This document shows, piece after piece, positions 45,255-52,421 of a DNA stretch of 64,000 nt. The notes beneath the pieces were generated by a model. The model made no database searches. It had not been told where the DNA came from and was given only the letters and a program-made list of their open reading frames with translations. A program made the translations under genes and the position numbers. Position 1 is the stretch's first letter, and every line of letters begins with the position of its first letter. The stretch comes from Nostoc carneum NIES-2107 (GTDB taxonomy: Bacteria; Cyanobacteriota; Cyanobacteriia; Cyanobacteriales; Nostocaceae), in the NCBI GenBank assembly GCA_002368155.1, contig AP018180.1:5541007-5605006 (forward strand), written 5' to 3'.

Positions 45255-45689
45255 ATGACAACGATATCTAACGTTCAGGTAACGATTTCTTTGGCTGGGC
45301 TGGATTTAGATGACGAAGATTTGCAAGCAGAAGTGCAAAATTTGCTCCCGCAGCTAAGAGAAGTAGATGGCGTAGAAGAAGCCGCTTTAGTACCTGAAGA
45401 CAATGCACCCAAAGGCTCAAAAGCTTTCGGGGGCTTTTTGTGGAATTTGTTAAATTTAGAAATTAATCCGGCGAATATCAAGACATTGTTTAGCTTTTTG
45501 GGCGATCGCTTCGGCAACAAACCCATTAAACTGGTAGTCAAAGGTACTGATGGTAGAGAACTCAACCTTGAAGCCAGCAGTCGGGAAGAGTTTGAATTTG
45601 CTTTCCAAAAAGCACAGGATTTTTTGAATAGTACCAATAAGGCGCAAGACAGCAAAGATGGCGAAGGTAGCACTGCTAATAGGGATTAG
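45255..45689 (+). CDS. EACC1-like effector-associated constant component
   Basis: A 144-residue protein, alpha/beta in pattern: strand VQVTISLAGLDL, helix LQAEVQNLLPQLREV, strand EEAALVPEDNAPKGSKA, a helical stretch with INPANIKTLFSFLGDRFG, then hairpin strands IKLVVKGTDGRELNLEASS and a last helix. The VPEDxxPKGSKA and KGTDGREL signatures match, in my judgement, the EACC1 component described by Aravind and co-workers in NTP-dependent or caspase-linked conflict systems. Its last 32 bases overlap the caspase gene, so the two are translationally coupled. Its exact role (adaptor or inhibitor of the effector) is not established. Confidence 0.7.
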   Translation: MTTISNVQVTISLAGLDLDDEDLQAEVQNLLPQLREVDGVEEAALVPEDNAPKGSKAFGGFLWNLLNLEINPANIKTLFSFLGDRFGNKPIKLVVKGTDGRELNLEASSREEFEFAFQKAQDFLNSTNKAQDSKDGEGSTANRD

Positions 45690-47799
45690 TGAATATGAGC
45701 CAGGTTTAAATCCCCTACCTGCTGCTGTCAACGATATCGAGGCGGTTAGGCGAGTATTAGTAAACCCAGAAATGGGTAACTTTGCTGAGGAAAATATTAC
45801 TGTATTGGCAAATGCTGAACGCCAGAAAATGGAAGAAGCAATAGAGAAGTTGTTTGTGGATCGTCAAAAGGATGATTTGGTAGTTTTCTTCTTCTCTGGT
45901 CATGGAATTAAGGATGACACAGGCAAACTTTATCTAGCAACACGTACCACACGCAAAACTGCAAAAGGTGATTTAATTCGCGCATCTGCAGTTACAGCTA
46001 GTTTTGTACATGAAAGTATCAGTCGTAGCAGATCTCAAAGACAAGTCATTATTTTAGATTGTTGTTTTAGTGGTGCGATCGCTCAAGGGATGACTGTCAA
46101 AGATGATGGTAATGTAAATGTACAAGAGCAGCTAGGTGGTAAGGGTCGGGCAATTCTCACTTCTTCCACTTCTACCCAGTATTCCTTTGAGCAAGAAGGC
46201 TCAGAACTCTCAATTTATACCCGTTATTTAGTAGAAGGTATTGAAACAGGTGCAGCTGATAAAGATACTGATGGTTATATTTCCATCGATGAGCTGCATG
46301 AGTATGCAAGTACAAAAGTTCAAGAAGCCTCACCAGCAATGACTCCGAAGTTCTATCCAGTGGAGGAAGGGCATAAGATTTTGCTGGCAAAGTCGCCTAA
46401 GGATGACCCTAAGCTGAAATACCGTAAGGAATTCGATAAGATTGCCCTTGAAGATGAAGGAGATATTTCAATTGGCAATCGCTTTTATTTAGATGAGTTG
46501 CGTAATAATTTGAGATTATCGGTAGGTGAGGCTGAGACAATTGAGTTTGAGGTTCTGGAACCCTATCGGAAACGCCAAGAAAAATTGCAACGCTATGAGC
46601 AAGCTTTATCGCAGATAGTACAACAGCAATACCCCATTAGTGAAAGAGATCAGAATGGATTGCAACGCTTACAAAATATCTTGAATCTTCGGGATGAAGA
46701 TATAGCTGTAATTAAACAACAAGTGCTTGCACCAAAAGAAGCCGAAAGATTACACCAACAACGAGAAACAGCAGAATTTCAAAGACAGGAAGCTGAAAGA
46801 TTACGCCAGCAAAGAGAAAGGGCAGAACTTCAACGACAGCAAGAAATACTATGGTCTCCAACTGTTTCTGAGCCTAAATCTCCCCCAGATATTCAAACCC
46901 AGACTTTTGAGTTTGACACCGCTACCTTAACGGTAAAAAGCTCAGGATGGTTTGGAATGGGGAAAAAAACCTATGAAATTAACCCTAGTCGTGGACAAGC
47001 TGAGTTTTTTACAGAAAATCTGGGTAATGGCGTAGTTTTGGAAATGGTGGCAATTCCTGGTGGTAAATTTCTCATGGGTTCGCCAGAGAATGAGGAAGGA
47101 CGATATGACTCAGAAAGTCCACAGCATAACGTTACCATTCAACCCTTTTTCATGGGGAAGTTTCCTGTTACTCAAAGCCAATGGCAAGCCGTTGCTGCTC
47201 TTGATAAAGTAAATATTGATTTAAATCCCGATCCAGCTAGATTTAAAGGTGCTAATCGACCTGTAGAATGTGTTTCTTGGGATGATGCAGTTGAGTTCTG
47301 CGCTCGACTCTCAAAACAGACACAGACAATGTATCGCTTACCCAGCGAAGCAGAATGGGAATATGCTTGTCGGGCGGGAACAAATACCCCGTTTTATTTT
47401 GGCGGAACAATTACAACCGATTTAGCAAATTATCGCGGTACAGACTGGGATTATCAAGCAACAGTTTACTCAAGCAATTATGGTCAAGGCCCTAAGGGTG
47501 AATTTCGTGAGCAAACAACCGATGTGGGAAAATTTCCTGCCAATCGCTTTGGTTTATTTGATATGCATGGAAATGTATGGGAATGGTGTCAGGATGAGTG
47601 GCACGAAAATTATAATAATGCACCAGCAGACGGCAGTGCTTGGTTAGTTGAGAATGATAATCAGAAAAGGCTGCTGCGTGGTGGTTCGTGGGGCAACGTT
47701 CCCTGGAATTGCCGTTCAGCGTATCGCGACTGGGGCGCGCCTGCCTATAGGTACGGCAGCGTGGGTTTTCGGGTTGTGATGGTTTGGCACAGGACTTAG
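45658..47799 (+). CDS. Caspase-like protease fused to a SUMF1/FGE-type C-type-lectin domain
   Basis: A 713-residue protein. Caspase (C14) domain about 1-245: MAKVALLIGISEY, catalytic His in FFFSGHG (about 82) and catalytic Cys in IILDCCFSGA (about 134). A helical region (about 260-360) and an Arg/Gln/Glu-rich coiled-coil (about 362-400, repeats of AERLRQQRE) follow. The SUMF1/FGE-like domain (about 455-713) shows IPGGKFLMGSP, PVTQSQWQAV, RLPSEAEWEYACRAGT and MHGNVWEWCQDEW, ending RGGSWGNVP...GFRVV. The paired redox Cys of true formylglycine enzymes are absent, so this fold is probably a binding module. I infer a sensor-triggered cell-death protease, coupled to the EACC1 protein. The last exon-like stretch resembles a DGR variable region. 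Confidence 0.9.
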   Translation: MAKVALLIGISEYEPGLNPLPAAVNDIEAVRRVLVNPEMGNFAEENITVLANAERQKMEEAIEKLFVDRQKDDLVVFFFSGHGIKDDTGKLYLATRTTRKTAKGDLIRASAVTASFVHESISRSRSQRQVIILDCCFSGAIAQGMTVKDDGNVNVQEQLGGKGRAILTSSTSTQYSFEQEGSELSIYTRYLVEGIETGAADKDTDGYISIDELHEYASTKVQEASPAMTPKFYPVEEGHKILLAKSPKDDPKLKYRKEFDKIALEDEGDISIGNRFYLDELRNNLRLSVGEAETIEFEVLEPYRKRQEKLQRYEQALSQIVQQQYPISERDQNGLQRLQNILNLRDEDIAVIKQQVLAPKEAERLHQQRETAEFQRQEAERLRQQRERAELQRQQEILWSPTVSEPKSPPDIQTQTFEFDTATLTVKSSGWFGMGKKTYEINPSRGQAEFFTENLGNGVVLEMVAIPGGKFLMGSPENEEGRYDSESPQHNVTIQPFFMGKFPVTQSQWQAVAALDKVNIDLNPDPARFKGANRPVECVSWDDAVEFCARLSKQTQTMYRLPSEAEWEYACRAGTNTPFYFGGTITTDLANYRGTDWDYQATVYSSNYGQGPKGEFREQTTDVGKFPANRFGLFDMHGNVWEWCQDEWHENYNNAPADGSAWLVENDNQKRLLRGGSWGNVPWNCRSAYRDWGAPAYRYGSVGFRVVMVWHRT
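47683..47775 (+). other. Candidate DGR variable region (VR) at the 3' end of the caspase-FGE gene
   Basis: From RGGSW to GFRVV the codons at positions usually Asn-rich in this fold are GGC, AAC, GTT, AAT, TAT, GAC, GGC, GCC, TAT, TAC, GGC and AGC. All are NNC or NNT, as expected if AAC/AAT template codons were changed at their adenines. Intervening codons (CGT, TCA, GCG, CGC, CCT, AGG) look constant. Such C-terminal C-type-lectin segments are the standard DGR target. No template repeat or reverse transcriptase was found in the window. Confidence 0.55.
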
Positions 47800-47931
47800 T
47801 AACCCTTTAAACTTTTGTCCTTTAGCACTTTACCCTTCTTTTTGTCTCGTGCTCTGCGCGATCAAATTTTTTATTTAATTTTTTAGATGAGTGATTTACT
47901 AATAATTCGTAATTCGTAATTAAAAAGTTAG

Positions 47932-48035
47932 GGTGTGTTGTCGCGCAGCGCAACGCACCGAAATATTTTACATAATCAAAGGTGCGTTAGCCTATCCTGC
48001 GGGAACGCTAAAAGCGAACGGCATAACACACCCTT
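47932..48035. repeat. Two family G-type hairpin repeats
   Basis: GGTGTGTTGTCGCGCAGCGC followed by AACGCACC, then GGTGCGTTAGCC...GGCATAACACACC. They lie between the caspase gene and the 21-bp minisatellite; nothing else is seen in 47800-48137. Confidence 0.65.
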
Positions 48036-48137
48036 GTATATTGAAAGAAGTGGTGAATGGAAATTCATCGGGTGTACCAAAAAAAAGTCCAGGCTTATTC
48101 CAGTGAGGTTGATTAAACTCTCCCTCTGAAACTTGTT

Positions 48138-48423
48138 GCTTTGTTAACCAAAGTCGTTAGCTTGTTAACCAAACTCGCGACCTTATTAAACAAAGTCGTA
48201 GTCTTGTTAAACAAACTCGTTAGCTTGTTAAACAAACTCGCGACCTTGTTAAACAAAGTCGTAGTCTTATTAAACAAACTCGCGACCTTGTTAAACAAAG
48301 TCGTAGTCTTATTAAACAAACTCGTTAGCTTGTTAAACAAAATCGTAGTCTTGTTAAAGAAAGTCGTTAGCTTGTTAAAGAAAGTCGCAATCTTGTTAAA
48401 CAAACTCGTTAGCTTGTTAAACC
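48138..48423. repeat. Minisatellite of 21-bp units, open on both strands
   Basis: About 13.5 units of CTTGTTAAACAAACTCGTTAG type, with alternating endings GTTAG, GCGAC and GTAGT. TTGTTAAACAA within each unit is self-complementary. On plus it reads as heptads such as LLNKLVS, and on minus as LFNKTTT. The plus frame (48141-48452) resembles a leucine zipper, but has no convincing ribosome site. It ends 20 bp before the amidase stop codon. Confidence 0.88.
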
Positions 48424-51707: not shown

Positions 51708-52421
51708 ATGAGACCATATCACCAAATCCCAATTTTAGAATGTGGTGAACCTTTAATAGCGATTCCCTTAGAACTATTTGCTGTGGAATCTCCCCATCCT
51801 TATGAAAAACTGGGCGCGCCTTATGGCGAACATTCTCCTTATTATCTGCGGCAAAGTGTGGTTGAATGTTTGATTCAAGCGCAAAATTATCTGCGATCGC
51901 AATATCCTAATTGGTACATCCAAATTTTTGATGCTTATCGCCCCGTTGCGGTGCAGCAGTTTATGGTAGATTACAGCTTTGCCGAAGCACTGAAGCAAAG
52001 AGGACTGATTGAGGTAGAGTTATCGCCTCAACAACTGCAAGAAATTTGGGAAGCTGTTTATCAAATTTGGGCTGCACCTAGCTTAGATACAAAAACTCCA
52101 CCGCCCCATAGTACTGGTGCAGCAGTAGATGTGACATTGGTAGATGATACTGGGAAAATTGTGGATATGGGTTCACCGATTGATGAATTGTCAGAGCGAT
52201 CGCTTCCCGATTACTATGCCAATAGTGAGTCCCCACAGGCAAAACAGTATCATACTCACCGTGAGTTACTGCGAGATGTGATGTTAAAAGCTGGATTTTG
52301 CCGCAATCCTAGAGAGTGGTGGCATTTTTCTTATGGGGATCAAATGTGGGCTTGGTTAAATAATCAATCTCATCCCAATAATTCTTTTACAGCCCGCTAT
52401 GGGCGTTTTCATATAAATTAA
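51708..52421 (+). CDS. D-Ala-D-Ala dipeptidase-like peptidase (M15D, VanX/DdpX type)
   Basis: A 237-residue protein. The zinc and catalytic motifs are PPHSTGAAVDVTL (SxHxxGxAxD) and REWWHFSYGD (ExxH), with FDAYRPVAVQQ as the Arg-containing YRP motif. It hydrolyses D-Ala-D-Ala. In organisms without vancomycin-resistance operons it is thought to recycle cell-wall dipeptide. There is no signal peptide, so it is cytoplasmic. It is probably co-transcribed with yidD. Confidence 0.9.
   Translation: MRPYHQIPILECGEPLIAIPLELFAVESPHPYEKLGAPYGEHSPYYLRQSVVECLIQAQNYLRSQYPNWYIQIFDAYRPVAVQQFMVDYSFAEALKQRGLIEVELSPQQLQEIWEAVYQIWAAPSLDTKTPPPHSTGAAVDVTLVDDTGKIVDMGSPIDELSERSLPDYYANSESPQAKQYHTHRELLRDVMLKAGFCRNPREWWHFSYGDQMWAWLNNQSHPNNSFTARYGRFHIN

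Follow-up and report, generated by a model that had tools for sequence, protein, structure and literature searches.

At the 3' end of a caspase-FGE gene in the window (the whole stretch of 64,000 nucleotides of Nostoc carneum NIES-2107 DNA analysed here), a run of codons resembles the variable region (VR) of a diversity-generating retroelement (DGR), a targeted mutation machine. The locus raises two questions: whether this segment was rewritten by such a machine, and where the machine is. Taken together, the observations identify a real and well-supported former DGR target from which the machinery is gone, leaving a diversified receptor and a readable scar.

A caspase-FGE gene and its 5' neighbour

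Two overlapping open reading frames on the forward strand make up the locus:

45255..45689, + strand: candidate diverged EACC1-like companion gene (ORF, 144 amino acids), its last 32 bases shared with the caspase gene
45658..47799, + strand: caspase-FGE gene, the former DGR target that encodes the variable protein (ORF, 713 amino acids)

The 713-residue protein contains a caspase domain (Pfam PF00656, residues 3-225) and an FGE-sulfatase domain (PF03781, residues 462-707). Its score of 177 bits against the NCBIfam family NF047832, caspase_w_EACC1 (cut-off 140), assigns it to the EACC1-associated type of caspase, and PADLOC also reports a caspase, at 62 bits. The orthologue in the nearest relative, genome G003, is 91% identical. 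Across 20 aligned homologues, His82 and Cys135/Cys136 of the caspase domain are invariant; we take these residues to be the catalytic pair. In the FGE domain, residues 97-246 of the query match TvpA (PDB 2Y3C) with an E-value of 7e-19. Together with the Pfam assignment, this sequence match places the VR at the C-terminus of the C-type-lectin/FGE domain. An AlphaFold2 model of the whole protein, built from 20 sequences, has pLDDT below 50 at residues 562-713, which include the VR, and was left aside in assigning the fold.

The identity of the companion gene is less clear-cut. Its product scores 14.7 bits against Pfam EACC1 (PF19953), below the cut-off of 23.6, and of 13 homologues that were scanned, eight give an EACC1 match at E<=1, the best with an E-value of 1.3e-4. 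A tblastn search with the 144-residue protein over 88 loci recovered a homologue in 37 of them at E<=1e-3 (L143 and L219 being the same place). Just 3' of the caspase-FGE stop codon lies a candidate inverted repeat, noted by eye.

Adenine-directed rewriting of the variable region

The 3' end of the caspase-FGE gene divides into a variable and a constant part:

47689..47763, + strand: variable region, 75 bases compared with the template repeat (TR); from the mismatch test against the TR of G002
47764..47799, + strand: constant 3' end of the target (GFRVV... and the stop codon); from the comparison of VR and TR tails

The reference template is the TR (L072) of G002, a genome from the same genus but another species, aligned to the VR without gaps. 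Against this template, 16 of the 26 template adenines and 2 of the 49 other bases are mismatched in the VR (Fisher p = 6.7e-8). The VR of G002 compared with its own TR gives mismatches at 13 of 26 adenines and at none of the 49 other positions. Outside the VR, the same genes are without this bias: between NIES-2107 and G002, differences affect 21 of the 182 adenines and 43 of the 414 remaining bases; between NIES-2107 and G003, with each site assigned to a class by its base in G002, they affect 9 of the 178 adenines and 25 of the 404 others. The adenine bias consequently belongs to the VR. The segment at 47689-47763 is a DGR variable region that has been rewritten relative to a G002-type template. 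The constant tail of the target reads AGGACTT where the corresponding TR tails read AGTACTC, and this constant end is presumably the homing-initiation site.

An earlier note on this DNA had proposed a DGR variable region in the caspase-FGE protein from codon usage, and the adenine mismatches bear out that proposal. All twelve codons that it named between RGGSW and GFRVV are present. As a list of the rewritten codons, this set is incomplete, as two TGG codons that face AGG in the G002 template also belong to it. The common feature on which the proposal drew, codons ending in C or T, can be seen in the sequence and is weak by itself, since 17 of the 24 codons from RGGSW to GFR end in this way.

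No complete DGR found in the assembly

The assembly of NIES-2107 (G000) comprises 9,359,223 bases (9.36 Mb) in four contigs with completeness listed as 100, and the absences reported here are those of this one assembly. A search with the RVT_1 profile, for which 49 of the 58 genomes in the set of relatives are positive, returned no match at E<=1e-3 in NIES-2107. A protein search for a DGR reverse transcriptase (RT) likewise gave no match at E<=1e-5 (six candidates scored); the same query was found over at least 344 of its 347 residues in 17 of the 58 relatives' genomes, including G002 and G003. The TR pattern search had no match in the genome. When the G002 TR and its tail were used as a DNA query, the search of the genome recovered the VR, a relic of the post-TR segment and one FGE paralogue, and no TR. 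The search for avd found no intact gene in the genome, only its first six codons at 47887 and, elsewhere, a possible fragment of 35 residues with stop codons (L272, C1 5951924-5952040; E 0.002), beside which neither an FGE gene nor a TR was found. In the plasmid DNA search, no record covers 80% of 46680-48130.

By RT, TR and avd alike, no complete DGR was found in this assembly. The template repeat, DGR RT and avd-like gene that the earlier note proposed to look for in the genome were not recovered by whole-genome searches, and a genome lacking RT or template was one of the two outcomes that it had named as speaking against its proposal.

A deletion scar downstream of the target

The same place was compared in eight genomes of the genus. 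In G002 the cassette at this locus is complete, with the order EACC1-like gene, caspase-FGE, avd, RT and TR between a ribBA-like gene and an amidase; its avd matches the DGR Avd family NF033474 at 141 bits (cut-off 80). NIES-2107 and G003 keep the target together with a scar, G006 keeps the start of the target and the scar, and G004 keeps a target fragment and the part of the scar that holds the avd start. No cassette lies between the flanking genes in G001, G005 and G007. G001 and G005, which lost the machinery by different deletions, have copies at other places; these are accompanied by degenerate remnants of a TR but by no RT.

In NIES-2107 the scar consists of the following elements:

47887..47906, + strand: avd remnant, the first six codons and two bases, followed by the junction (comparison with G002 by eye; scar alignment of G000, G003, G006 and G004)
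47931..48033, no strand assigned: MITE-like dispersed repeat in place of avd, RT and TR, with ends GGGTGTGTT ... AACACACCC
48046..48130, + strand: relic of the segment 3' of the TR in the DGR RNA, 89% identical to G002 L218 7644-7728

The left junction has the motif ATAAT in common with the end of avd in G002, as judged by eye. The MITE-like repeat is present at no fewer than 41 places in the NIES-2107 genome at E<=1e-3, itself counted (40 of 98 candidates scored), and most of these copies span only 30-70 bases of its length. At a minimum of 12 bases, an inverted-repeat finder gave no result for it. The G002 segment that matches the relic (7644-7728 of L218, in reversed coordinates) lies directly 3' of the G002 TR, and of the nine pairs that the covariation model places in its inner hairpin, the relic keeps eight. 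G000, G003 and G006 agree in both junctions and in the MITE-like insert.

Given the gene order in G002 and what is left here of avd and the post-TR segment, a cassette of this kind must have been present in cis and deleted. Sequence comparison thus indicates that the machine sat next to the caspase-FGE gene and was deleted there. G002 serves as a stand-in and not as the ancestor, because its target gene is far more diverged from that of NIES-2107 (dS of 1.14 in the caspase and 0.38 in the FGE domain) than are the genes beside it. The earlier note had suggested that the receptor is being diversified in trans. With no RT, no TR, only a 35-residue avd fragment elsewhere and a deletion scar in cis, this suggestion finds no support here, although the VR could have been rewritten in trans at some earlier time.

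Directly after the scar, positions 48129-48422 hold a 14-copy array of a 21-bp unit. Similar sequence occurs in G003 and G006, and the array sequence has no match in G002.

One scar and two variable regions

NIES-2107 and G003 have the scar in common, yet 18 of the 75 VR bases are different between them, 16 of these at template adenines. Over the 26 VR codons, dN is 0.355 and dS is 0.058. Ordinary divergence between relatives across this segment, which the earlier note had set against a DGR, is not what these positions display. If the scar is older than the split between NIES-2107 and G003, then rewriting in cis cannot explain the difference between their VRs.

Divergence along the locus is patchy. 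Between NIES-2107 and G003, dS is 0.211 in the ribBA-like gene, 0.178 in the upstream ORF, 0.082 in the caspase, 0.043 in the linker and 0.267 in the FGE domain; downstream it is 0.110 in the amidase and 0.106 in the gene at 51708-52421. Between NIES-2107 and G002, the corresponding values are 0.134 in the ribBA-like gene, 0.081 in the upstream ORF and 0.177 in the amidase. By this measure NIES-2107 is nearer G002 upstream of the target and nearer G003 downstream of it. This patchiness favours allele exchange by recombination, and the likeliest account of the sequences, although not a proven one, is that recombination within the locus joined one scar to two VRs. As the dS of the FGE domain (0.267) is similar to that of the ribBA-like gene (0.211), the FGE domain may be vertically inherited, with the low-dS caspase as the exchanged part.

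Drift does not account for the change in the VR, since the VR residues of an FGE paralogue (L127; C1 6380979-6381840 in NIES-2107) are the same in five species, represented by G000, G002, G003, G004 and G006. The G001 copy of this paralogue differs at two residues. L127 is a useful frozen control.

A second DGR in G003, on contig C4, carries the only full-length DGR RT among the matches listed for that genome. It was considered as the writer and rejected, as its TR misfits both VRs, with 15 of 44 non-adenine positions mismatched in each.

Proposed history of the locus and its alternatives

Taken jointly, the data favour a gene that was the target of a directly downstream DGR, now lost, whose specificity would now be fixed and whose VR alleles have probably recombined; we assign this reading a probability of about 0.8. 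Two steps of this history can be read from the sequences: rewriting of the caspase-FGE VR at template adenines by a DGR with avd, RT and TR directly downstream, and loss of avd, RT and TR from the locus, with the avd and post-TR remnants staying behind. A third step is probable: recombination, by which the downstream part lacking the RT came to sit beside FGE/VR alleles that had been diversified before and differed from one another. By analogy with other DGR-diversified FGE/CLec sensors, the FGE domain may bind a ligand and gate the caspase. If so, binding specificity in NIES-2107 would now be fixed.

A broader proposal is that diversified FGE/VR modules of the EACC1-type caspase system continue to be swapped between species by homologous recombination after the deletion of avd, RT and TR, giving the clade an inherited, machine-free repertoire of receptors. 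We put this forward tentatively, as an idea that has a reasonable chance of being right and a better one of being wrong.

The strongest alternative is that, after the loss in cis, the VR was rewritten in trans by a second DGR of the same template class, since lost or unassembled. Such a machine would accommodate the 16 template-adenine differences between two genomes that carry one scar, and its later loss could explain a change in the VR that drift, given the paralogue with the same VR residues in five species, does not. Trans DGR activity is reported in the cited text on Thiohalocapsa (PMC10907252), and RTs 66-72% identical to that of G002 occur on plasmids of Fischerella, Anabaena, Microcystis, Nostoc and Acaryochloris. 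Against this stand the lack of any RT or TR match in G000 and the poor fit of the contig C4 template of G003 to either VR. On balance we regard rewriting in trans as rather unlikely.

It is also conceivable that rewriting took place in cis in each lineage separately, and that the same scar then arose twice or spread between species. Recurrent deletion could follow from the ATAAT motif at the left junction and from the MITE-like repeats, and the machinery was indeed lost by different deletions in G001 and G005. The affinity of NIES-2107 to G003 downstream of the target and to G002 upstream would likewise fit a scar that arose twice or spread. A recurrent event is harder to reconcile with two identical junctions around the same insert in three genomes, which makes this an unlikely history. 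Ordinary positive selection on a binding surface, with no DGR, would account for the excess of dN over dS in the 26 VR codons, and is already contradicted by the concentration of 16 of 18 changes at template adenines and by the avd and post-TR remnants that adjoin the gene, so that its chances are very slim.

Other targets and remnants

The NIES-2107 genome has 11 FGE matches. Besides the caspase-FGE gene, three of these end in VR-like segments related to the G003 TR, and comparison with that TR gave mismatches at 18 of 31 adenines and 5 of 44 other bases for L126 (C1 2501156), 18 of 31 and 6 of 44 for L128 (C1 1467466), and 17 of 31 and 2 of 44 for L131 (C1 2497103). These ends belong to another template class than the caspase-FGE VR of the same genome. 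L126 and L128 both carry a 9-base insertion, and their true template is therefore probably another one. Searches of the stretches fetched around the three loci detected neither RT nor avd nor TR. RT and avd protein queries near the FGE genes of NIES-2107 gave no match below E 0.89, while the positive control, L269, was found.

A census of remnants began from 76 loci of the genome collection and kept the 49 that have a VR-like end, by pattern, and at least 3 kb downstream. The 27 left out (18 without the pattern, nine too short) include the avd-remnant loci L141, L148, L152 and L153. With the G002 RT and avd as the only queries, four of the 49 loci have a complete RT next to the target, three an RT fragment and nine an avd remnant only; two, in G003 and G001, have the post-TR motif only, and 31 have none of these. 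In all, 14 of the 49 loci, those of G003 and G001 among them, thus retain some part of avd, RT or the post-TR segment. Set against the four loci with a complete RT, this means that a DGR census based on RTs would miss many written targets. Among the 31 loci with none of these, a few lie outside the cyanobacteria, and some may be remote targets whose genomes carry a DGR at another place.

The post-TR segments, which lie directly 3' of cyanobacterial TRs and were taken from L065-L092, L138, L140, L179, L197 and L201, appear to share a covarying RNA structure. The window relic and 26 of the 30 extracted segments fold into a common structure of 17 pairs. Of these pairs, 11 have changed on both sides, and 97.8% of cells pair, compared with 30-50% when the partners are slid, in a structure derived from the same alignment as was scored, which favours it. 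Rfam, at gathering thresholds, had no match on the two DGR loci scanned.

Two further FGE genes, at position 8891 of L268 (G003 contig C37) and position 7069 of L183 (Nostoc sp. KVJ20), run from a rewritten VR straight into a TR-type tail (AGTACTCTT) and the post-TR segment. They look as if VR and TR had recombined, deleting the part between. A scan for such ends found one among 51 distinct ends (L268); L183 was noted by eye.

Comparison with known systems

The locus shows, base by base, how a targeted-hypermutation system was lost while its product was kept. It also makes it possible to ask directly whether receptors of this type remain of use when they no longer vary. No description of the present series of losses was recognised in the literature searched, whose coverage leaves out most subscription journals.

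TvpA of Treponema denticola is a surface lipoprotein and is not known to have a caspase domain. By sequence match (PDB 2Y3C), the protein described here resembles it in having an FGE-like/C-type lectin fold with a C-terminal DGR VR.

Earlier publications already cover DGR targets of the caspase-CLec kind, remote targets and the replacement of RTs by MITEs, as the cited portions of PMC7517822 and PMC10907252 make clear. Cyanobacterial DGRs with CLec variable proteins are described there as having the VR in a C-terminal CLec/FGE domain, in some cases an orthocaspase N-terminus, and dispersed targets (Vallota-Eastman 2020, PMC7517822). The same account reports that all3226 of Nostoc PCC 7120 has remnant TR-VR homology with no RT nearby, and suggests that, after a favourable variant has arisen, the machinery may be dispensed with. 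The present gene is like these systems in its caspase N-terminus, its VR in a C-terminal FGE domain and its state as an RT-less remnant. It differs in that Nostoc PCC 7120 still has two DGRs by that account, whereas no RT or TR was found genome-wide in NIES-2107, and in that the deletion scar here is readable and can be compared between species. DGR hypermutation has also been reported in cultured Nostoc, according to the part of PMC12691664 cited.

In Thiohalocapsa PB-PSB1, MITE-like arrays are reported to replace the RT or TR at some loci while the targets stay, and a single population contains both intact and degraded variants (Dore 2024, PMC10907252, as excerpted). The locus in NIES-2107 is like those degenerate loci, with a MITE-like repeat in place of the machinery and a target that stays. 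Unlike PB-PSB1, which on that description has complete DGRs able to act in trans, NIES-2107 has none that was found, and its target is an EACC1-type caspase.

In the sections of Kaur 2020 (PMC7159879) drawn on here, the EACC1-caspase pair is a two-gene conflict system with a 5' EACC1 gene and a 3' caspase gene that has a variable C-terminal domain. EACC1 is described as having a single TM helix and as found mainly in actinobacteria, and DGRs are linked to VMAP-ternary systems. The locus in NIES-2107 has a like arrangement of a 5' gene, a candidate EACC1-like one, and a 3' caspase with a variable C-terminal domain. It departs from that system in that the C-terminal domain is a DGR-written FGE domain and the host is a cyanobacterium.
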